NCBI RefSeq assembly: GCF_010119545.1
Contig: NZ_JAAEAA010000006.1
Location: 154,776 to 218,775, forward strand
Direction of reading: 5' to 3'
DNA: 64,000 nucleotides
From: Pontibacter fetidus
GTDB taxonomy: Bacteria; Bacteroidota; Bacteroidia; Cytophagales; Hymenobacteraceae
Below, one piece after another: positions 18,288-28,831 of the stretch. The stretch's first letter is position 1; every line of letters starts with the position of its first letter. The position numbers were made by a program, and so were the translations under genes. The notes under the pieces were generated by a model. It saw only the letters and a list, made by a program, of their open reading frames with translations. It had not been told where the DNA came from and did not search any database.

Positions 18288-18941
18288 TTATTTAACCTTT
18301 TCGAGCGTTCCAACTTTTGGCAGAATCTGGATCACGAACCTACGATCCCGGATATCGCCTTTACGGCCGGCTCCTTCAAAACCACTACCTGCAGCAATCA
18401 GTTCTATCCGGTCTTTGGGGAATTTGATGCCGGCACTTTGCCAGAACTTGAGCAGGGCCAACGCCCGCTGGTAACTTAACTGCAAGGCATACTCTCGCTG
18501 GGTAACATTGCGCGGATCGCCAGCCGGGAAACTGGCTGCGCGACCGTCTATCACTATCAGGTATTTTACATCTTTCTCGTCTATGGAATTGATGACCTGG
18601 CTCAGGTTCTGCCCGGCTCTGCGCAGTGGTGCCCTGGAGCGTTCCGGTATTACAGCGCTGCTTTGCTCGAACAGTACATCAACCAATAATTCGTGTCGTT
18701 TATACTTTTCGTTGTACTGGAAATACTTATCATCCAGGCGGGCAAGGGCGGCTTTGATTTCGTCTAGTTTGCGCTTTTCCTGTACCTCTACCTGCAGCCG
18801 GGCAATGTTCTCGCGGTTCTCCCGGTCCTTGCCCTGGAACATTTTATAGCTTAGTACAAAAAGCACCAGCATCACCAGAAAAAGCACCGTCATCAGGTCG
18901 ACGTAACTGGGCCAGAAAAAGTCTCTGCTCTCCTTGCTCAT
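18288..18941 (-). CDS. MotB/ZorB-like protein: one TM helix plus OmpA-like domain
   Basis: A 217-residue protein and the last gene of the seven-gene cluster. The N-terminal helix (SYVDLMTVLFLVMLVLFVLS, residues 12-31) has Asp15 in the position of the proton-carrying Asp of MotB (YADFMT) and ZorB. A coiled segment (about 36-85) leads to an OmpA-type peptidoglycan-binding domain with QLSYQRALALLKFW and, near the end, DRRFVIQILPK, matching the LSxxRA and NRRV motifs. It starts 2 bases after the stop of the MotA-like gene, so the two are coupled and probably form a stator-like ion channel anchored to the wall. No ExbD/TolR features are seen. Confidence 0.85.
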   Translation of the reverse strand: MSKESRDFFWPSYVDLMTVLFLVMLVLFVLSYKMFQGKDRENRENIARLQVEVQEKRKLDEIKAALARLDDKYFQYNEKYKRHELLVDVLFEQSSAVIPERSRAPLRRAGQNLSQVINSIDEKDVKYLIVIDGRAASFPAGDPRNVTQREYALQLSYQRALALLKFWQSAGIKFPKDRIELIAAGSGFEGAGRKGDIRDRRFVIQILPKVGTLEKVK

Positions 18942-18943
18942 CC

Positions 18944-20704
18944 TTACCTCCTGCTGTTGCCGCCACCAAATAACTTATCAAGTGCCGCTTTAATTGGGCC
19001 CGGCTCCAGGCTTCGCGCCATGTGCATGTTAAGTACCTGTAGTTGCTGTAATAACTGCTGTTGTATGGCCATGTCGGTCTCTATTTTCTGAAGCAGGCGT
19101 TCGTTGGTTTGCTGTATCTCTCCGGATAGTTGTTGTTGTGTTCTGTTCAGGTCGCTTTGCTGCTGATTCAGGTTCTCGAAAGGCTGCATATAATCCAGAA
19201 TGCGCTGGTAAACGTTGTCTTCGTTGAGGTTCCGGAAATGTTCCTGCCACTTTTCGTAGGCGTTCTGTGCATCGCGTTCCTGGTGCTGCAGGCGGGCTTC
19301 CATCAGGTCGGTTAAGCGAAGGGCGGCTTTATCGAAATACTGTTCTATGCGGGAGCCAATGTCATTTAATTCGCGCTCGTGCTGCCCAAAAAAGTTAACC
19401 TGCCGTTGAATGGACTCATCGTGCTTTTGCAGGTAGCCCGGCACTTTGTCAAAGCCTTCCTGCAGGCTGGTTAAACGGCCCAACACATCGCTTATCGTAT
19501 GCGTCAGTTCTGCTCCTTTCTGCACCGATTCGTTCAATGCCACCTGGTACTGCATAAAGTTTTTAAATAGCTGTTCGCTTTCCTTCATCTTATCAAATAC
19601 CTGCAGATTAGCGTTCGCCATCTGCGTAAAACCGATCTTGTCCAGCTTCTCTATGAATTCCTTTTGGGTGCTGATGTTCTCCGTAAGTGTGTCAACTATA
19701 GGCCGGAAGCCAAGTACCTTATCTAGGAAATCTTTATTGAATGAATCGAGCACCGACTTCAGGTTGCTTAGGCTGGCCGCCATATCGGAGTTCAGCTTGG
19801 GCAGCAGGTGCGTTTGCAGGAAAGTATAATAATCGTTCTGTCGCCTGTCCCGTATACTTCGGGCATTTTTCAGGGCATGGTTCCCGATCAAGGTAAGCAG
19901 CAAACCACAGAAGCTACCGGCCATCGCGATCATCACCCCGAACAGGAAAGATGGAATGTTTTGATCGGTTATAAAAGAGCCTGCCGCTGCTCCGTTTTCA
20001 TCTGCCGTAAAACCAGACCAGATCAAACTCGACAAACCAATTATTACCCCTGAAAAAGTGCCCAGTAAACCTACATAAAGCGGCGTAGTTATAGTTGACT
20101 GCACTTCTGCATCCAGAGCTTCAGAGTAGCGCTCCGATACATCTTTCAGTATATCGAAATCTGCGGCCGCACCCTTATTGCGCTTCAGGTACTCGTTGGT
20201 GTTCCGGATGATCCGGCTAAACGTCTCTGAGGGATTACGGACTTCTATCAAGTCTATAGTTGCAGCACCTTTCCCACCCGACGAAACCGAACTTACCAGC
20301 GCATCCGGGTCGCCCTGCACCAGGTAAATGTTATGGCCGGTTACCAGTTTATCGAACTTCTCGCGGGCTATAGTATATGCCGGCACCGGGCCACCTTTTG
20401 CTTCGATGTGCAGCAGGTCATTTTCCACAGCAACAATGCGTTTTACAGCCGGGTTAGAGGGTGTAAACTCCCGGAAGGGTTTGCCGGCCAGCAGTGCCCC
20501 CCATAGTTGCTCTATAGTTTGTGGTGCAGTGGCAACTATAGGTGCGGTGTGATCTAGTAAGGTTTCTGTAACAGATAACTTCTCTTCGGAAGGAAACAGG
20601 TTTTTGATAAGCTCAATTTTGACCTTGTTATTCCGGTATACATAAAACTGGTAACCAAGTATAGCAAGTACTAAAAGTGCTTCAAAAATAAATATTCCTT
20701 CCAT
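18944..20704 (-). CDS. MotA/TolQ/ExbB-family channel subunit with long coiled-coil tail (ZorA-like)
   Basis: A 586-residue inner-membrane protein. One helix lies at residues 5-24 (FIFEALLVLAILGYQFYVY); after a soluble part of about 180 residues come two hydrophobic segments, VGLLGTFSGVIIGLSSLIW and FGVMIAMAGSFCGLLLTLIG, which form the MotA/TolQ/ExbB proton-channel signature. From about residue 285 to the end lies a long cytoplasmic part rich in Q, E and L (DLNRTQQQLSGEIQQTNERL), predicted coiled coil. This layout, channel plus long tail, is that of ZorA of the Zorya defence system more than of TolQ. It is coupled to the MotB-like gene and follows the Q/R-rich protein gene by 9 bases. Confidence 0.84.
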   Translation of the reverse strand: MEGIFIFEALLVLAILGYQFYVYRNNKVKIELIKNLFPSEEKLSVTETLLDHTAPIVATAPQTIEQLWGALLAGKPFREFTPSNPAVKRIVAVENDLLHIEAKGGPVPAYTIAREKFDKLVTGHNIYLVQGDPDALVSSVSSGGKGAATIDLIEVRNPSETFSRIIRNTNEYLKRNKGAAADFDILKDVSERYSEALDAEVQSTITTPLYVGLLGTFSGVIIGLSSLIWSGFTADENGAAAGSFITDQNIPSFLFGVMIAMAGSFCGLLLTLIGNHALKNARSIRDRRQNDYYTFLQTHLLPKLNSDMAASLSNLKSVLDSFNKDFLDKVLGFRPIVDTLTENISTQKEFIEKLDKIGFTQMANANLQVFDKMKESEQLFKNFMQYQVALNESVQKGAELTHTISDVLGRLTSLQEGFDKVPGYLQKHDESIQRQVNFFGQHERELNDIGSRIEQYFDKAALRLTDLMEARLQHQERDAQNAYEKWQEHFRNLNEDNVYQRILDYMQPFENLNQQQSDLNRTQQQLSGEIQQTNERLLQKIETDMAIQQQLLQQLQVLNMHMARSLEPGPIKAALDKLFGGGNSRR

Positions 20705-20713
20705 GTATGCGGG

Positions 20714-21658
20714 TTATCTGAAATCGATTCTGGCTTTCTCCTGTATTCTCCAGCCATTGTTTACTTTAGCCAGCACGCCGTCCTGTTGCTGCACTATCCG
20801 GGATACCATGCGGTTCGATGGCTTCTCAAAATCAAAGGCATTCTCCAGGCGGTCTATCCCCTGCGAAATAACAAAGGCATGGTTACCACTCAGGTTAAAA
20901 CGGTAATGCGTTGTGTTACTGCCTTCGGCTGGTACATCTACTTCAATGTAACTATCAGAGTCGGGCTGGCGCTGTAAATGATGCTGGCGTATCACCCCGT
21001 CTTCCGGGATAATGGCAAAACGCATACCTGAATCGGCTACCACTTCGGGCGCTTGTTCGGCTATAGTTGTGGGCTGGTTAAATCCTGCTTCCTGTTCCAG
21101 TTCATCCAGCAAATGACTCCCGACAATTTCGAAATTTATACCATCTGTAGCTGCCAGTGGCTGTTCGCTAACAGGTTCTTCCGAGTTGCCCGATCGGTCT
21201 CTTGGCTCGTTACGTCTGCGGTTCTCTTTTTTGCGACGCTGTTGCTGCTCCTGCTGGCTTGTATCCTGTTGCTGCTGTTGCGGCCTTTCTTGTTGTTGGG
21301 GTCTTTCCTGCTGACGTCGCTCCTGCTGTTGGCGCTCGGGTTGCTGTCTTTCCTGTGGTAGCCGTTCCTGTTGAGGCTGTCGCTCTTTTTGTTTCTGACG
21401 TGGCTCTTGTCTCTCAGGCTTCTGTTGTTCCTGTTTAGGCTGGTTTCTACGCCCAGTCTCTTCCAGCTCAGGCGCTGGTTTATTTCCCCGGTTAGCTGAG
21501 CTTTGTAACCTGCTCTGGTTTGCTTCCAGGTACTTTACACGCTCCTTCAGGTCTTCTATGCGTTTGCCTAAAATATGATGTGAGCTGCTGGCCCTGATAA
21601 AAGCAAAACCTGCCCCAACCAGTGCTACTAAACTTATTATAATTGCGATTGTAACCAT
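20714..21658 (-). CDS. membrane-anchored Q/R/E-rich coiled-coil protein, unknown
   Basis: A 314-residue protein I do not recognise. An N-terminal membrane helix (IAIIISLVALVGAGFAFI) is followed by a short coiled coil (KRIEDLKERVKYLEANQSRL), then a low-complexity stretch at about residues 68-150 made almost only of Q, R, E, P and K, with imperfect repeats of the form QERxQ. The C-terminal part (about 170-314) has ordinary composition and looks folded; it contains RFAIIPEDGVIRQHHL, HYRFNLSGNHAFVISQ and NNGWRIQEKARIDFR. Its place between the ATPase and the channel gene suggests a scaffold linking the two, which is inference. The 127 bases before it contain only AT-rich DNA. Confidence 0.75.
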   Translation of the reverse strand: MVTIAIIISLVALVGAGFAFIRASSSHHILGKRIEDLKERVKYLEANQSRLQSSANRGNKPAPELEETGRRNQPKQEQQKPERQEPRQKQKERQPQQERLPQERQQPERQQQERRQQERPQQQERPQQQQQDTSQQEQQQRRKKENRRRNEPRDRSGNSEEPVSEQPLAATDGINFEIVGSHLLDELEQEAGFNQPTTIAEQAPEVVADSGMRFAIIPEDGVIRQHHLQRQPDSDSYIEVDVPAEGSNTTHYRFNLSGNHAFVISQGIDRLENAFDFEKPSNRMVSRIVQQQDGVLAKVNNGWRIQEKARIDFR

Positions 21659-21785
21659 TTTTCAATGTAGTTTTATTCTGATGAAGAAATAATGTCTTTG
21701 TGAAAGTATACTCTGTCAAACTATAAAATCAACCACCCCTGATTATAGTTGAGAATGATTGATTTATAGTTTGATTTTCTGTTTG

Positions 21786-24700
21786 TTAGGAAATAGCGCT
21801 TACCTGAGACTGCTGCTTATATAACTCTTTCGATAGCAAGTACAGCGACTGCTTTAGCGGCATAAAGAACATGGTCTCATGTAGCGGCTCCCGGTCTGTC
21901 AGGCCACGCACGGTATCTTCCAGCACCATGGTATAGCTGTCCTGCAGGTTCATGCGCATAAAGTCCAGCACACGCATCGGGTCTACCTCCACGCCCATCG
22001 AGCGCATCAGCGGCGAAATATCCGGATCATCCAGCAACATGGTCAGGCAGTTCATTACATTATCCATAACTTCCTGGCGTAGCTCACCGGTAATCTGTGT
22101 TTTGGTTACTGGCGTCAGGGCATCTGTTACGTTGGCAGAACCAGTCGGTTTTAGTATCGGGATGTTCGTTAAGTCGTTCAGGTCTGTGCCTTCCAGTGCC
22201 ATCGCGCCGCCATTGGCCGTTACCTGCTTCGGATTGTCTACCAGTACCAGTTTAAAGTTTGCCGGCGGCTCCTGCCCTGTTACCTTCTGGAAAATAGCCT
22301 TCGCATAGCGCTCCACATTCGACAGGTTGTTGCCTGCACTCAGCAACTTAATGTATAAACTACCGCGACCGCTAAACGAAATGTAGCGTGGCACTTTTAC
22401 ATCCAGTTGCTGCACCAGTTGTGCCAGGTGGTACATCAACGAGCCGAAGTGTAGGTAGAACATCAGTCTTAACTGACGCGCCTGCAGTAGCTGCGAACTA
22501 TAGTTCAGTTCCTTATCATAACTAAACAGCAATGCACTTATATCCGCTGAGTTAAAGTCCGGGTTATCCAAAGCTGTTTCCAGGAATTTGCGATACTCGC
22601 GTCCTTCTTCGGTTAGCGGAATACGCAATACGTGGTCCACGCCATACTGCAGCAGGCCATTGTCTTTACTTGTTTTTACAGTAGCAAAACCATCACCCCA
22701 CAAATCGTTGCCGGCAAAACGGAACGACGAACTATGCGAAGGCCTGCGGTTTGTGAACAGTAACACATCGGTTGTACCACCACCAATGTCCACGTTGATC
22801 AGGTTCTCGTCCTGGCTCGGCACTACAGCCCCTGTCCTGGACAGGAAGTAGAACGGAGCCACTGACTCAGTAATGCAAACCGTATTCCTGCCATTTTTGA
22901 ACACGTTGTTGTACACCGTATCCCACACGTTCTGGAACATGTTGCGGGAATATTCATCAAAGCTCAATGGGGCAAACCATACTATTTTGGTACTCGCCAC
23001 ATTGCCGTTGTTCAGTACTACCTTGTTCTTGATGAGCAGCATGATTTCGGTGAAGAAGGCTTCGATGCGGCGCTTGCCGGCATTGGTCAGCGTTTCGCTC
23101 CACTTCAGGTCGGTGTGGTAGGTTTGCTTGTACTGGTCCTGGTGCGTGCCTTCGGTATTAATGGAGAAACCTATGTTGATATTGCCAAACAGGTTCGTGA
23201 TCTGGTTCTCAAAATCAATAGACTCGCAGGTAGCCGTACGTGTCGGGAAGTTATACAACGAGCCACCGGAGCCGATAATCAACGGTATAAATTCGCGCTT
23301 CAGCAAAGTCTCTACGGCAAACAATCTACCAAAGCCGCGCTTATGGAAACGCTGGTAATCTGTTAGCGACTGATCATCGGAAGGCTTGTTGAGCATAACC
23401 AGTTGCTGGTCGTTAGCTGTGATGGAAAACTCGCGCGGCGGCTGGTTCGAGCCTGAAGTATAGGCGATATGCGTGTTCGAGGTACCAAAGTCAATAGCAA
23501 AAGTAAAGTTATGAATACCCTGCTGTTTCTCTTCAAATTTAGGAACGATGAGTGCCTTGCCCACAAAATCTACCCCGGCATGAGTAAACTCCGCTACATC
23601 GAAGTGTATGCCACGGATCTCGTAGTAAGTGCTGCCCGCGCTGCTGTTACTCTTCCTGGTTCTGCGGTGTGCAGTAGCTGAAATAATACCACCACCAGCT
23701 TCCAGTAACTTGCCACCTGCATAGAAATTGAGCGAATGGTTCTTATTCACCAACAACGGATCAATGTCTTCATCTACCAGCATCACCTTGTAAAAGTCGT
23801 TGTACTGCACCGCGTCGGTAAACTTATAGAACGGAAATACACCCAACCCAATTCTGGATTTCAGGATATGCCCTTTCTCCGGAATCACGTTGCCGTTCGC
23901 GTCTTTTGAGTTCAGTGGGTTGTCGTAATAGCTGCGCTCGTATACCACATTTCCTTTTTCCGTCGGCACGTTCAGTGTTACCCGCACATGGTTCACATCG
24001 ATATGGAAGGTCAGGTGATTGGCCAGGTCTTCTGGTGTGAAAAACTGGAAGTATAAACTGGTGATCGGCAGCAGGTAATTAAAAGTTTTATCGGTTACAC
24101 CCGGCTGGTACACTACGGTACCACTATAGAAACGATCCGTGTTTACTTCGTAAGGAACCTGCACCAGCGTTTCCTGTAACAGGTCGTTTATCGTTAAGTA
24201 TGGATAGTTAAACCCGACACCCGGAAGTGAACGGTTCTCCAGCGGTTTCTCGTCGTAATAGCCCACCACTGTATTAACCGGCCATGCCAGGTTGTTTACA
24301 TACTTTATAGTTGGTGCTAAGCGTAGTTCGGGCTTCAGTACAATTGGTCGCTCGCCTGAAAAACCGGTATGTGTCGGGCGAATGAACAGATCGCTACTGA
24401 TAACGGCTGTCTGATCCTTTTTCACCAGGAAGTTGATGTGGCCCACGTGTACCGGGTTTTGCTGAAAATCTACCAGTTGCAGGTACTCCGAAGCTATGGC
24501 TCCCTGACCAACCTCACCTGCCATATTAATTTTGCGCAGCAAATTCTCGTCCAATGAATTATACACCGCCGGAAATGCCTGGATCATGGCTGGGTTTGAT
24601 ACAAATAGCTTGTGCACATACTCCCTGAAATCCTGCTCACGATCTTCCAGCGATACAAAATTATGGTCGAAGTAAGTACCGATATTCTGGGCACGGTTTA

Positions 24701-25250
24701 TACTAAGCGGCTGCACGTTTGGTGCCACAAACAGGAATGTCAGCGGCGATGTACCGCCAATCAGCTGCATGTGCCTGTCGCCGCGTGGGGTTGTTGTTTC
24801 AAAAAAGATCAGGAAAATGTCATCGATTCCCTGGAAGCGGCTGTCGTTCATGAACAGTTCCAGCGTGCGACCCAGCAAGCTCGTGTTCGGGTTGGCCTGC
24901 ATCGCACCCAACTGCTGGTGCTTGTTCCAGCGGCGGATGATGATCTTGTTACCAGCCTGCGCATAGCTTTGGTGATTGTAAAGCAGTTCCCACAGATCCC
25001 AGAAATGGGTTACAAATTTGTGGTAAATGGTGTTGGTGCTATTACCTGCTACGCCGCGTTTCACAAATTCGAAAGCGGTTTCGAAAAGGTGCATGCGGGC
25101 AAATGGCGTTGGTATGGAAGCGTTAATCTTCAAAGCGCGGCCACCAGCGCCATCGGTTATATCTTTTATCTCGGTGCTTGTGATCTGGCTGGTCTTAGCC
25201 CAGCCTTCCACGTTTGATCCGGTTTTATGTAGACGAAGAACTTTCGGCAT
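21786..25250 (-). CDS. large protein with C-terminal Hsp70/actin-type ATPase domain
   Basis: An 1154-residue protein without a signal peptide. The C-terminal half is an actin/Hsp70-fold ATPase: phosphate-1 loop FAIDFGTSNTHIAY (Asp587 onward), phosphate-2 loop VDIGGGTTDVLLF (about 820), an adenosine-type motif ISFSGRGSLYIKLL and VTANGGAMALEG. The first 570 residues match no domain I know; they include HFWDLWELLYNHQSYAQAGN and IDDIFLIFFETTTPRGD and look globular and beta-rich. The nearest family that comes to mind is the large SrfB-type Hsp70-like proteins, but I cannot confirm this. It is separated from the tubulin-like gene upstream by 334 bases holding two inverted repeats. Confidence 0.8.
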   Translation of the reverse strand: MPKVLRLHKTGSNVEGWAKTSQITSTEIKDITDGAGGRALKINASIPTPFARMHLFETAFEFVKRGVAGNSTNTIYHKFVTHFWDLWELLYNHQSYAQAGNKIIIRRWNKHQQLGAMQANPNTSLLGRTLELFMNDSRFQGIDDIFLIFFETTTPRGDRHMQLIGGTSPLTFLFVAPNVQPLSINRAQNIGTYFDHNFVSLEDREQDFREYVHKLFVSNPAMIQAFPAVYNSLDENLLRKINMAGEVGQGAIASEYLQLVDFQQNPVHVGHINFLVKKDQTAVISSDLFIRPTHTGFSGERPIVLKPELRLAPTIKYVNNLAWPVNTVVGYYDEKPLENRSLPGVGFNYPYLTINDLLQETLVQVPYEVNTDRFYSGTVVYQPGVTDKTFNYLLPITSLYFQFFTPEDLANHLTFHIDVNHVRVTLNVPTEKGNVVYERSYYDNPLNSKDANGNVIPEKGHILKSRIGLGVFPFYKFTDAVQYNDFYKVMLVDEDIDPLLVNKNHSLNFYAGGKLLEAGGGIISATAHRRTRKSNSSAGSTYYEIRGIHFDVAEFTHAGVDFVGKALIVPKFEEKQQGIHNFTFAIDFGTSNTHIAYTSGSNQPPREFSITANDQQLVMLNKPSDDQSLTDYQRFHKRGFGRLFAVETLLKREFIPLIIGSGGSLYNFPTRTATCESIDFENQITNLFGNINIGFSINTEGTHQDQYKQTYHTDLKWSETLTNAGKRRIEAFFTEIMLLIKNKVVLNNGNVASTKIVWFAPLSFDEYSRNMFQNVWDTVYNNVFKNGRNTVCITESVAPFYFLSRTGAVVPSQDENLINVDIGGGTTDVLLFTNRRPSHSSSFRFAGNDLWGDGFATVKTSKDNGLLQYGVDHVLRIPLTEEGREYRKFLETALDNPDFNSADISALLFSYDKELNYSSQLLQARQLRLMFYLHFGSLMYHLAQLVQQLDVKVPRYISFSGRGSLYIKLLSAGNNLSNVERYAKAIFQKVTGQEPPANFKLVLVDNPKQVTANGGAMALEGTDLNDLTNIPILKPTGSANVTDALTPVTKTQITGELRQEVMDNVMNCLTMLLDDPDISPLMRSMGVEVDPMRVLDFMRMNLQDSYTMVLEDTVRGLTDREPLHETMFFMPLKQSLYLLSKELYKQQSQVSAIS

Positions 25251-25280
25251 GTTTGTTTTTTGTTTTAAGTACGATTACCT

Positions 25281-25403
25281 GCCCTCGCTCGCGTCCCGCG
25301 AGTGTGAGCTATTTGGCGGACTCTGGCCGCTTTAATTTGTACCTGTGGTACAAGTGGCGGGACACCACTGGATAACACACACTCGCGGGACGCGAGCGAG
25401 GGC
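25281..25403. repeat. perfect 26-bp inverted repeat, REP/MITE-like
   Basis: Arm 25281-25306 is the exact reverse complement of arm 25378-25403 (both contain CGCGAGxGAGGG/CCCTCGCTCGCG-type sequence). The 71-base interior has further palindromes (TTGTACCTGTGGTACAA and GTGGCGGGACACCAC). It is far more GC-rich than its surroundings. No open frame is inside. Confidence 0.88.
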
Positions 25404-25452
25404 TATCTTTTATCATTTTGCTCTTTAGGATTTGTAATCCAGAAGAGAACTA

Positions 25453-25560
25453 TCCCCTTGAGGGGATTATAGGGGTGTTTACAACTGCTTAAGATTCGAG
25501 GACATTTATCAGCAGCTAAACCTCGTGCACGATTACACCCCTGCAGTCCCCTCAAGGGGA
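25453..25560. repeat. imperfect 26-bp inverted repeat around CCCCTTGAGGGG
   Basis: Arm 25453-25478 and arm 25535-25560 are reverse complements except for about four central bases. Each arm is itself partly palindromic (CCCCTTGAGGGG). Similar palindromes recur between genes in Bacteroidota, so this is probably a REP-like element; that comparison is from memory. Confidence 0.75.
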
Positions 25561-25584
25561 CAGTCTCACTAAAGATTATCAACC

Positions 25585-27036
25585 TTAACTATACTTCAGT
25601 TTCTCCTCCACCAGCCGTTCTGTAGCGGTTTCAAAAGCTTTTATAGTTGCCTTGAAAGCGTCGCGGTCAGAGATGGATTCGGAAGCGCGGTTAAGCTCTT
25701 TTACAAAAGCCCCCTGGCTTATTCCTTTGTTCAGGAAACCGGTCTCAATCTGCTTATCCGATACCATGCGGTTAAAGTCCGTTTCGTTCAGGTTTAGCGC
25801 AGCAAAAGTTCTCTCTTTGCGGCCCAATTCACGCAACCACGACTGGTAACCAAATTCCGGGTTTGCTAAAAACTTGTTGAGCTCTTTAAACACTAGCTCG
25901 TTACGGATAGCCCCTGTCAGGTCTACACCTTTGGCATAAGCGGCCTGTGCATCGCCCGGCAGGTGGGTAGCGTAATAGCGTTCGAAGTAATGGAAACGGA
26001 TTAACTGTGTAGCGATACGGTCTCTTGTTTCGCTGTCCAGGTGCGAGAACTGCACGTTGCTTACATCTTCGCGCAAACCATACTCGTGGTATACTTCGTT
26101 GCCAGATAGCTCATTATCCGAGTAATCCATGAAGTCAACTATAGCTAAAGCGCTCAGCAGTTCTACTAAATGTGCGTCGTTTTTCTGGCTGGCACGACCC
26201 GGATTGTTTTCCATTGGTTTATCCGGCGTATCACCCATATAGTATACAGCATTCACGCCGTTCAGGTGATTCTGGTAGTAAGATAGCGCGTCTTTTGCCT
26301 TCGTGGTGAAGGTATTAGAATCGATAAAATCTGCCTCTACCCCGGCGGCCGGTTGCTCCAGAGAAAAGTATGGAAGAACCACCATTGCTCCTGTCAGCGC
26401 TGAGTTCAGACTAGCCGCGTTTGGCAAGGTTGTTCTGCTATCCTTAAAGTTCTTAAGTAGAAGCGGGAAACCGGCAGCGCCAGTTCCACCAAAGATCGAG
26501 CTCACAAAAAAGATACGGTCACCAGCCTGGAAGTTGGACGCGAAAAAGCGCATTTCCGGAGAATCAATGATCTCGTTCAGCACCACGCTACCTACGTTCG
26601 GGCTACCGCGGAAACCTACATCCAGGCTGTTGTTCAGGTTCTCAGGTGTAAACAGTAAGTCGATCAATGCCTGGCTTTCAATGTCGAGCTGGTTGTAACC
26701 TACATGGTCTTTAAACGGCTTGTTGATGCCACCAAAATCATACACAAAACTGTCACGGATCTTGGCTGTTCCGTCGCCGGCTATACTTGACAGCGTGCTG
26801 ATATCGGTATGGAAGAAACCTTCGTCGCGGTTACCCAGGGCATCATGTATGTGCTTGTAGGTTTTGAGCAGCTCCACGGTACGGTTCATGTCGCCGTTTT
26901 GGGTGTCGGGGTCGATAATGATTGGTACTATTTTATCACAGTTCTGAATTTTGACACCTGCAGCCATCAGCATGACCAGCGAACGGATCACGCGGGAACC
27001 GGTGCCACCTATTCCGAATACAAAAAGCTTTGCCAT
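25585..27036 (-). CDS. tubulin-like GTPase (Tubulin_2 type)
   Basis: A 483-residue protein with a tubulin/FtsZ-type nucleotide-binding domain. The N-terminus MAKLFVFGIGGTGSRVIRSL is a Rossmann glycine loop, and the signature loop appears as SSIFGGTGAAGFPLLLK near residues 180-195, corresponding to the GGGTGTG/G loop of FtsZ and tubulin. Other tubulin features (an IIIDPDTQNGD segment in the T3 region) fit loosely. It is not FtsZ: the length, the extra C-terminal helices and the context differ. It is annotated as the Tubulin_2 family (PF13809) by recognition. It begins 2 bases after the stop of the small membrane protein gene, so it is in the same operon. Confidence 0.85.
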   Translation of the reverse strand: MAKLFVFGIGGTGSRVIRSLVMLMAAGVKIQNCDKIVPIIIDPDTQNGDMNRTVELLKTYKHIHDALGNRDEGFFHTDISTLSSIAGDGTAKIRDSFVYDFGGINKPFKDHVGYNQLDIESQALIDLLFTPENLNNSLDVGFRGSPNVGSVVLNEIIDSPEMRFFASNFQAGDRIFFVSSIFGGTGAAGFPLLLKNFKDSRTTLPNAASLNSALTGAMVVLPYFSLEQPAAGVEADFIDSNTFTTKAKDALSYYQNHLNGVNAVYYMGDTPDKPMENNPGRASQKNDAHLVELLSALAIVDFMDYSDNELSGNEVYHEYGLREDVSNVQFSHLDSETRDRIATQLIRFHYFERYYATHLPGDAQAAYAKGVDLTGAIRNELVFKELNKFLANPEFGYQSWLRELGRKERTFAALNLNETDFNRMVSDKQIETGFLNKGISQGAFVKELNRASESISDRDAFKATIKAFETATERLVEEKLKYS

Positions 27037-27038
27037 AG

Positions 27039-27452
27039 TTATTTTTTATTAGGCCATTTCATAGGAGTTGTCCATGCCTGCACGGAGCCCCTTTTGAGTA
27101 GTATAGAGAAAACGAAGAAAAGGATGATACTGTATATCACGTTCACAAAAGCGAACATATACGTGTAAGAGTGTGTCTCGATCTCGTTGCCGGTTACCTG
27201 CGTTATCGGGATGATGAAAGCGATGATGGCGTTCAGGATCAGGAACATGACCCAGTGCTGGGTTTTATACAGGCCAGTGCTCATGGCGCGGTTCAGTACA
27301 TAGTAGTAAAGTATAACGATGCCCAGCGTAATCAGAAACAGCATCAGCCCGGTGTTTGGGAAAACCACTTCACGGTAATCGTTGGTGAAGTTTGCAGGAA
27401 TCGGCCGGCCTAAAAACAGCTCGTAGAGTCCGGAGAAAAACTTTTGTATCAT
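27039..27452 (-). CDS. small membrane protein with three TM helices, unknown
   Basis: A 137-residue protein I do not recognise. Three hydrophobic segments are clear: GLMLFLITLGIVILYYYVL, VMFLILNAIIAFIIPITQV and FAFVNVIYSIILFFVFSILL. The N-terminal 30 residues (FFSGLYELFLGRPIPANF) are soluble or peripheral and the tail is basic. It sits 5 bases after the lipoprotein gene and 2 before the tubulin-like gene, so tight coupling suggests a membrane anchor or docking subunit for the tubulin-like protein. Confidence 0.8.
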   Translation of the reverse strand: MIQKFFSGLYELFLGRPIPANFTNDYREVVFPNTGLMLFLITLGIVILYYYVLNRAMSTGLYKTQHWVMFLILNAIIAFIIPITQVTGNEIETHSYTYMFAFVNVIYSIILFFVFSILLKRGSVQAWTTPMKWPNKK

Positions 27453-27457
27453 GGGTG

Positions 27458-28831
27458 TTAGTCTGCTTTTTTAAATTGTATGGTTGCATTAAAAACGAAG
27501 TCGCTCTGGTCGCGGTAAAGTGCCTGAACGCCGTCTATTATCTTGGTTAACTGGTATGTCTTTTTGGGAGCCACAGCCGGGTTGTTGTCGTTGTCTGTTG
27601 ACCAGGCTGTAATCCAGTTTGGCGTTACTTGTGGCAGTTGCACAGCTATAGTTCCGGAACTGGCAGTTAGTTCTGGTACCCGCAGGCGCACAAAATGGCT
27701 ATACTTGGCCAGGTCTGGTGTTGACTTTATACTTTCGTCGGCAGCGGTAACCGAAACTATAGTTGGCCTGCTGCCCGTGCTACTTATTTTCAGGTTCTTT
27801 TTCAGGTAGTCTGTACTTTGCATCGACAGCGGCAGTTGGCTCAAATCCAGGCCAATGGTAAACTCCACAGGTTCTTTTTTCTCTGGCTGAAGATTTACAG
27901 AAGTACACGGATCGGCATTTCGGCTGCTGCAGTAAACGACACCGGTCGGTTTAAATTGCTTTTCCTTGAGCAAGGCCGAAAATGGTATAGACTTGTACTC
28001 AAAGCCAAAGTATGCCTGTTGTGCCGGAAGGTTACGCAGCACTTTGTTGGTTACAACCTGCACATCCTCCTGCTTTCCGATTACCCAGATATAATACGGT
28101 ATTTCCTCGCCGTTCAAAGTTCTTCTCAGTTCCGGTTTTTTTACGGCCGGGTGATATGTACCGTAGAATGGTGATGCATTAGCAAGTATAGCAATGGCCA
28201 GCCCCTGGTACTCGGCTTCGCGAAGGCTGCTACGGATGTCTGAGTCGAGTGATATAAACTGCCCCTGGTCGCGCGGGTCCGGGCCGTGTATAAAATCGGA
28301 AATGATAACGCTTACTGCCCCCTGCTCTATAGATTTTTGTAATGCAGTTTTCAGTAAAGCCGGCAGCGGGGTGCCACGTACATCATCTTTTATCCCGCTA
28401 ACGATGTAACTTTTGATGGTATTGTACGACACGCTATCCAGCACTGGACGGCTTTGGGCATCCTCTTTCGCCAGGTAAAATCCTTTCTCAGCAACGTAGC
28501 GTCCATCCTGTACTTCTGAGAGCAGTTTGTTGAGGTTGTTCTGGAAGGTAGTGGCTTCTTTTCCGGCAGCAGGGGTTGGCATAAAGCCTTTCATCCCGTT
28601 CGAGATCTCAAGGTATACGTTCACATTTACTTTGGCAGGAGCCTTGGTTTCTGCCGGAACTATAGTTTCCGGGGCCTTTGCTGAAGCTTCAGTTTTTTCG
28701 GTTTGTGCAGGGGTTGTGGTGTCAGGGTTTGTTTCTTCGGTGCCAGACTGCTTTTTAAAGCAACCGGACAGGGTTAGTATGATGCAAAGCAACACTACAT
28801 AGAAGGTACTCAAAAACGTTGTTTTAAGCAT
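27458..28831 (-). CDS. lipoprotein with VWA-like domain, first gene of the cluster
   Basis: A 457-residue lipoprotein. The open frame extends to 28924, but the ATG at 28831 begins a normal lipoprotein signal (KTTFLSTFYVVLLCIILT, lipobox LSGC), followed by a T/E/A/P-rich linker of about 45 residues. The folded part starts VNVYLEISNGMKGFM, which resembles the first strand and metal site of a von Willebrand A domain (DxSxSM) with Asp replaced by Glu, and has VSVIISDFIHGPDPRDQG as a second VWA-like motif. The C-terminal portion looks like beta-sandwich. It is the only predicted periplasmic subunit, so it may sense or contact the envelope side. Confidence 0.8.
   Translation of the reverse strand: MLKTTFLSTFYVVLLCIILTLSGCFKKQSGTEETNPDTTTPAQTEKTEASAKAPETIVPAETKAPAKVNVNVYLEISNGMKGFMPTPAAGKEATTFQNNLNKLLSEVQDGRYVAEKGFYLAKEDAQSRPVLDSVSYNTIKSYIVSGIKDDVRGTPLPALLKTALQKSIEQGAVSVIISDFIHGPDPRDQGQFISLDSDIRSSLREAEYQGLAIAILANASPFYGTYHPAVKKPELRRTLNGEEIPYYIWVIGKQEDVQVVTNKVLRNLPAQQAYFGFEYKSIPFSALLKEKQFKPTGVVYCSSRNADPCTSVNLQPEKKEPVEFTIGLDLSQLPLSMQSTDYLKKNLKISSTGSRPTIVSVTAADESIKSTPDLAKYSHFVRLRVPELTASSGTIAVQLPQVTPNWITAWSTDNDNNPAVAPKKTYQLTKIIDGVQALYRDQSDFVFNATIQFKKAD

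Follow-up and report, generated by a model that had tools for sequence, protein, structure and literature searches.

In this study, a 64,000-nucleotide stretch of Pontibacter fetidus DNA (the window; it lies in contig C46, and the genome has 4.07 Mb) was found to carry, at positions 18288-28831 of the minus strand, seven genes that we propose to encode one envelope-spanning, stator-driven, membrane-bound tubulin-actin module that reshapes or braces the cell envelope. This is the leading reading and a tentative one, to which we give a probability of roughly 0.4. It is based on the order and co-retention of the genes, two folds seen as predicted models, nucleotide-binding motifs, natural tubulin-actin fusions, the similarity of one subunit to MotB and ZorB with an invariant Asp, and the Cys of a lipoprotein. 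Complex formation, ion flow, force, the site of action, and filament formation are parts of the reading that we infer.

Organization and co-retention of the seven genes

All seven minus-strand genes ascribed to this region by the original prediction, which was made from the letters of the DNA, were confirmed in the open reading frame (ORF) list of the window. Transcription runs from 28831 to 18288 through genes for a VWA-like lipoprotein (gene 1), a small membrane protein (gene 2), a tubulin-like protein (gene 3), a giant actin-like protein (gene 4), a tether (gene 5), a MotA-like protein (gene 6), and a MotB-like protein (gene 7). The intergenic gaps in this order are 5, 2, 334, 127, 9, and 2 bases, which fits the spacing of 2 to 9 bases claimed for four of the six junctions. 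Rfam and tRNA scans of the window gave no matches.

Scanning genome contigs with an alignment of the tubulin-like protein gave at least 577 relatives, of which the best 80 loci were kept. These include loci of Pontibacter, Botryobacter, Rufibacter, Sabulibacter, Adhaeribacter, Hymenobacter, Solirubrum, Cesiribacter, and Nafulsella; the named loci nearest to the window are from Pontibacter (97% for the tubulin-like protein of P. vulgaris, among these best 80). In a profile search, 77 of the 80 loci contained all seven genes in the same order on one strand, and the remaining three are cut by contig ends; the MotB match of one locus (L094) is an ORF of just 61 residues. The profiles behind this count were seeded with about half of the same 80 loci and admitted matches below 1e-4, which flatters the later E values. 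With the window proteins as sole queries (tblastn, 80 loci), genes 1 to 4 were found at 80/80 loci, gene 5 at 62/80, gene 6 at 79/80, and gene 7 at 76/80. A chance neighborhood can be rejected on the basis of the 77 ordered loci, at which the homologues of the tubulin-like gene keep their neighbors, as had been expected of a real system.

The same association was seen in whole genomes. Among 59 genomes, that of the window included, the tubulin gene is present in 22 and that of MotA in 20, and none has MotA without tubulin (Fisher's test, 8e-14, not corrected for shared ancestry); the two with tubulin but without MotA both lie outside the family. In the genus of genome G129, labeled Hymenobacter because its positions coincide with named loci (G605 with L043 and G532 with L068), the tubulin gene is present in 120/120 genomes and MotA in 118/120. 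The two genomes without MotA have only a diverged tubulin, and one of them is 82% complete. In several genomes of this genus (G409, G568, G580, G606, G626, and G634), the tubulin gene is in two pieces, possibly through frameshifts or sequencing errors. In genome G040, the cluster is split by about 230 kb into a part with the lipoprotein, membrane protein, and tubulin genes (L116) and a second part with the actin-like, tether, and MotA genes (L199), in which no MotB-like gene was found. Proteins P0122, P0124, P0125, P0257, and P0263 bear conflicting public names, among them cell division protein FtsA, AAA family ATPase, and O-fucosyltransferase.

Wider sampling gave matches in 8/296 genomes of a phylum sample and 70/241 of an order sample. 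At 31 distant loci, hand-picked from the matches and thus not random, the tubulin and actin-like genes were found together at 24, the four core genes at 19, MotA at 9, and MotB at 8; where no actin-like match was found (seven loci), five of the loci are those of far relatives of the tubulin. Judged by gene content, the core of the system comprises four genes, those for the lipoprotein, the membrane protein, the tubulin-like protein, and the actin-like ATPase, with the stator as a module of some lineages, because MotA and MotB occur at only 9/31 and 8/31 distant loci compared with 19/31 for the four core genes.

Distant loci without MotAB carry other modules, such as TerD-like and OmpA-type proteins. 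At L114 (368-8455) and L115 (487-12607), the tubulin and giant actin-like proteins stand with proteins that we presume, from a motif, to be TerD-like, and a single-helix OmpA-type protein replaces MotAB. A second Hsp70 takes the place of MotAB at L201 and probably at L189; the former (L201:2960-11791, in G622 of the Hymenobacter genus) is a diverged version in which a second ATPase, DnaK-like, accompanies the giant one and a MotA-like gene is missing. On the mobilizable plasmid Cy782204 of the cyanobacterium Gloeothece verrucosa (L198; NC_014503.1), the gene of a small membrane protein is followed by those of the tubulin and the giant protein, and a VWA lipoprotein containing DGSGSM is encoded on the opposite strand. 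A second, diverged full set was observed at G033:C1:421500-441000 (L119), in a genome that also has a standard set, and is followed by a small VWA protein, which we take to be TerY-like.

Predicted folds, stator pair, and membrane partners

All of the features described below are on the minus strand. Gene 3 (25585-27036) encodes a tubulin/FtsZ-fold, GTPase-like protein of 483 residues. Its AlphaFold model, with a predicted template modeling score (pTM) of 0.90, matches FtsZ, CetZ, and tubulin in structure comparison, and the fold of the GTPase domain is present. The patterns of a T1-type loop (GGTGSR, residues 10-15, 26992-27009) and a T4-type GTP loop (GGTGAAG, residues 183-189, 26470-26490) occur in 49/49 aligned sequences, so that the loop from which a tubulin-like GTPase had been predicted is conserved throughout. 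The protein matches PF00091 with an E value of 8.5e-5, under the cut-off. By sequence it is related to FtsZl1/Tubulin_2 (PF13809), for which 27/49 aligned members reach an E value of 0.01, and it is not filed as a member because the window protein scores 16.7 bits against a cut-off of 27. Besides the usual FtsZ, the genome of the window contains a second FtsZ/tubulin-domain protein in a 790-residue open frame (G000:C17:46424-46903); frames in G018 and G014 are similar, with about 790 to 799 residues, and those in G004 and G009 are both shorter and more diverged (312 and 330 residues).

Gene 4 (21786-25250) encodes a giant actin/Hsp70-fold, ATPase-like protein of 1154 residues, whose AlphaFold model has a predicted local distance difference test (pLDDT) value of 86 and a pTM of 0.74. 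The fold matches are to MreB, MamK, DnaK, and actin, with alignment rows spanning residues 579-1030. The domain, with its DFGTSNT and DIGGGTTD motifs, lies at residues 580-1030 or thereabouts (22161-23513); some 580 residues precede it, and the ATPase domain with which the protein had been said to end is followed by about 120 more. The phosphate 1 and phosphate 2 motif patterns were found in 49/51 and 48/51 sequences, respectively, and D587 and D821 are invariant. Against the FtsA family (PF14450), gene 4 scores 20.7 bits with a cut-off of 31.8; alone in a PDB sequence search, it found FtsA as the best match with an E value of 0.19, and a Pfam search of eight giant proteins gave no family above its cut-off. 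The possibility that the tubulin-like or actin-like fold had been misread was rejected, as the predicted models support both.

Five proteins of 1606-1644 residues, among the 120 listed of 123 actin-like homologues, start with a whole tubulin-like protein. An ORF of this fusion kind at L180, with 1623 residues and from the same order, is possibly among these five. Gene fusion is classical evidence for two proteins acting together, and these natural fusions suggest that the products of genes 3 and 4 do so.

Gene 7 (18288-18941) encodes a MotB/ZorB-like subunit of 217 residues. Its OmpA-type domain reaches 27.5 bits against PF00691 (cut-off 27.2), it matches the ZorB model with an E value of 1.8e-10, and 19/19 aligned members match that model. 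The predicted ion-channel Asp15 (codon 18897-18899) lies in the N-terminal membrane helix and is invariant (19/19), in agreement with the OmpA-domain subunit with a channel Asp that had been described. The gene 7 profile finds the solved structure 8vvn_B at 2.7e-6, and 8VVN is a type I ZorAB (PMC11890865). Gene 6 (18944-20704) encodes the MotA/TolQ/ExbB-like partner of 586 residues, the more diverged of the two. PF01618 is matched by 8/20 aligned members at an E value of at most 0.1 (best, 3e-5), and the family has a GLLGT helix motif with S264 and T271 invariant. The alignment suggests a TolQ/ExbB-type topology of a helix, a loop, two helices, and a tail of about 300 residues with many invariant positions (18947-19867), presumably cytoplasmic, which fits the MotA/TolQ-like subunit with a long tail claimed before. 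In PDB searches, the single gene 6 sequence found nothing useful, and its profile found TolQ with an E value of 0.75.

The remaining genes encode putative membrane partners. In the lipoprotein of gene 1 (27458-28831, 457 residues), Cys24 is invariant in 19/19 aligned sequences, and a simple lipobox pattern matches 17/19. In the VWA-type motif, resembling a metal ion-dependent adhesion site (EISNGMKGFMP, residues 75-85, 28577-28609), the first Asp is replaced by Glu, and E75, S77, M80, T154, S178, and D179 are invariant (19/19). The protein has no Pfam VWA match; a cyanobacterial homologue reached by an iteratively widened profile has D-G-S-G-S-M. These results uphold the VWA-like lipoprotein of the original prediction, as does the finding for its three-helix protein: gene 2 (27039-27452, 137 residues) probably has three helices, its homologues, present at all 77 complete loci, having mostly three hydrophobic segments (range, 2 to 4). 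In the gene 5 protein (20714-21658, 314 residues), a Q/R/E/K-rich linker connects a membrane anchor to a conserved C-terminal domain of about 85 residues (20717-20971). Tethers of 22 loci were compared. In those of six Pontibacter and Rufibacter loci, an N-terminal helix is joined to the conserved C-terminal domain by a linker that is 42-53% Q, R, E, or K; those of 13 Hymenobacter, Solirubrum, and Adhaeribacter loci have a longer N-terminal region, often with a signal-peptide-like start, and then a helix at residue 72-229; and three from Cesiribacter and Nafulsella have no such later helix. The charges after the helix suggest that the C-terminal domain is cytoplasmic. The anchor and Q/R-rich composition of the original prediction were borne out, but its coiled coil was not established. 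We take the layout to be ZipA-like.

Residence in the genomes and alternative functions

A flanking family, looked for with a short downstream flank, is shared by 526/528 locus pairs in Hymenobacter clade A, 10/21 in the Rufibacter group, and 81/153 in clade B. The ten flank proteins of the window gave one match across the 80 loci. Among 12 genomes of the window's genus, the mean DNA difference of the tubulin gene is 0.170 compared with 0.175 for the FtsZ core (Mantel r = 0.49, P = 0.001, uncorrected for shared ancestry); at the protein level, the values are 0.065 and 0.052, with no correlation (r = -0.02). A recent sweep through Pontibacter was rejected, since the tubulin gene and the FtsZ core differ to a similar degree in the DNA of these 12 genomes. 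Phage or plasmid cargo was rejected as the main carrier: there were 0 matches in 50,697 phage records, 6 in 72,556 plasmid records (all below 60% identity), and 3 IMG/VR loci. Two IMG/VR contigs filed as viral, L151 (103,595 bases) and L152 (58,265 bases), carry lipoprotein, membrane protein, tubulin, actin-like, MotA, and MotB genes, and no tether match was found in them. The pattern suggests that the system has long resided in Pontibacter, where it was at times lost or relocated, and that its inheritance in Hymenobacter is fixed. Because the whole genus Hymenobacter keeps the system, a housekeeping role is favored; such retention argues for it over a defense role, with which it is also compatible.

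Several results weigh against the proposed module. The system is patchy in the window's own genus (19/37 genomes), and its sites change within the Pontibacter group, where 11/91 locus pairs share a flank; both fit an accessory function. Gene 3 falls below the cut-offs of both Pfam families, which makes a tubulin assignment by sequence alone weak. It found no tubulin as a single query in a PDB sequence search, the probability in a profile comparison with FtsZ was 0.8%, with an alignment too weak for mapping the catalytic residues of an FtsZ-type polymer (T7), and its Foldseek TM-scores are low (0.20-0.28 by query). The gene 6 protein of the window has no MotA_ExbB (PF01618) match of its own. 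Finally, the MotAB module is not universal among the 31 distant loci, and the core thus works without this stator in other lineages.

The patchiness and relocation in Pontibacter would also suit a Zorya-like phage defense or envelope-damage alarm, in which a motor of the ZorAB type would respond to damaged peptidoglycan and use its tails to bring in the tubulin-actin pair as effector. ZorB models match all 19 MotB-like proteins and the ZorA2 model matches 5/20 MotA-like proteins, that of the window not among them; the channel Asp and OmpA-type domain of the B subunit and the long cytoplasmic tail of the A subunit are as in ZorAB, and the ZorA tail and peptidoglycan-binding domain are required for defense (PMC11890865). 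Some distant relatives have the proteins read as TerD-like. However, the seven proteins gave no match to a Zorya effector at an E value of 1, ZorC, ZorD, ZorE, ZorF, and ZorG were absent from 61 flanking proteins (51 of 81 flank ORFs plus 10 window ORFs) at 1e-10, and tubulin, actin-like, tether, and lipoprotein genes stand in their place. At the same threshold, PADLOC matched just 2 of the 61, one of them helicase-like with generic matches. The absence from phage records, the presence in all Hymenobacter genomes, and a tubulin gene that diverges no faster than the FtsZ core in DNA, and slightly faster in protein, also speak against this function, which we consider unlikely. The phage-defense half of the original prediction is thus weak, and its other half, an envelope motor driving two cytoskeletal nucleoside triphosphatases (NTPases), stands as the best inference.

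A conflict or stress-signaling system of the kind proposed by Kaur et al. in 2020, in which NTP-driven tubulin and HSP70-type thresholds would surround a vWA-mediated assembly and do no mechanical work, appears somewhat less probable still. Tubulin, HSP70-fold, vWA, and membrane proteins, likely near the membrane, recur in the DO-GTPase/GAP1-N2 systems (PMC7159879), and TerD-like proteins or a second Hsp70 occur in variants of the present system too. But those systems are centered on TRAFAC GTPases and GAP1, and MotA is absent from the text (PMC7159879); no TRAFAC GTPase, GAP1, or FNIII Pfam match was found in the seven proteins at an E value of 1. The tubulin and HSP70 themes lie in non-overlapping neighborhoods in that work (PMC7159879), whereas they are adjacent or even fused here. 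The stator is also hard to explain by signaling. The GldLM motor occurs in Bacteroidota, and a surface motility or secretion motor comparable to it, with tubulin and actin as a cytoplasmic scaffold, is the least probable of the functions considered. The conserved gene 6 tail would fit such a motor, and type 9 secretion and gliding are likewise driven by ion-powered motors of the 5:2 type (PMC11890865).

Relation to described systems and proposed mechanism

In the open-licence PMC literature searched, no description of this operon or of a tubulin-actin fusion was found, nor any machine joining the tubulin, actin, and stator classes in one gene unit. The earlier claim that no described system has all of these parts fits this result, but partial relatives have been published (PMC2875224 and PMC7159879). 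The operon is set beside a known kind because the FtsZl1 loci and the GTPase-centered conflict systems share parts with it. The FtsZl1 (Tubulin_2) protein of Makarova and Koonin (2010) is a divergent FtsZ-family protein that is mostly encoded beside a vWA protein, some with a signal peptide; OmpA-family proteins are neighbors in several genomes, and GTPases and kinases are further partners. It was predicted to function in membrane remodeling, and its T6-H7 region was not confidently identified by the authors (PMC2875224). Gene 1, with Glu for Asp, is the corresponding vWA protein here. In contrast to gene 3, most FtsZl1 tubulins have a long coiled coil, with GTPases and protein kinases as frequent partners, and the main text names no Hsp70, MotA, or MotB and mentions actin as general background (PMC2875224). 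The actin-fold partner, the fusions, and the stator are additions over this published, uncharacterized kind.

FtsZ, FtsA, and ZipA together with Tol-Pal also bring tubulin-family and actin-family partners to the membrane, with a stator driven by the proton motive force nearby. Here, however, the genes form one operon beside the cell's own FtsZ, and the actin partner has 1154 residues and is sometimes fused to the tubulin. By analogy, the tubulin-actin module might be regarded as a compact "Z-ring plus Tol-Pal" unit that is separate from the cell's own FtsZ.

In the module that we propose, the products of genes 3 and 4 would bind each other on the cytoplasmic side of the inner membrane, in the manner of FtsZ and FtsA, and would be held there by the gene 2 membrane protein and the gene 5 tether. 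Genes 6 and 7 would form a predicted proton- or sodium-driven stator acting on this pair; a stator of the 5:2 type may open once its OmpA-type domain has taken hold of peptidoglycan, and the long tails may then push on or reorganize the tubulin-actin assembly. The VWA lipoprotein could serve as a docking point in the periplasm or at the outer membrane. A more specific version, a motor-driven composite cytoskeleton in which the two NTPases would assemble together at the inner membrane (as one polypeptide of 1600 residues in some species) and the ion-powered stator would pull on them or rotate against them to deform the envelope, is possible, though doubtful.

At the bacterial membrane, the chief classes of force-generating proteins include tubulins, actins, and ion-driven stators. 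A conserved operon that holds all three, together with the tubulin-actin fusions, makes the membrane remodeling predicted for FtsZl1 in 2010 testable in culturable Hymenobacter and Pontibacter, and it gives the FtsZl1 family a candidate partner. If the leading reading is true, it would be a case of a stator acting on the cytoskeleton.

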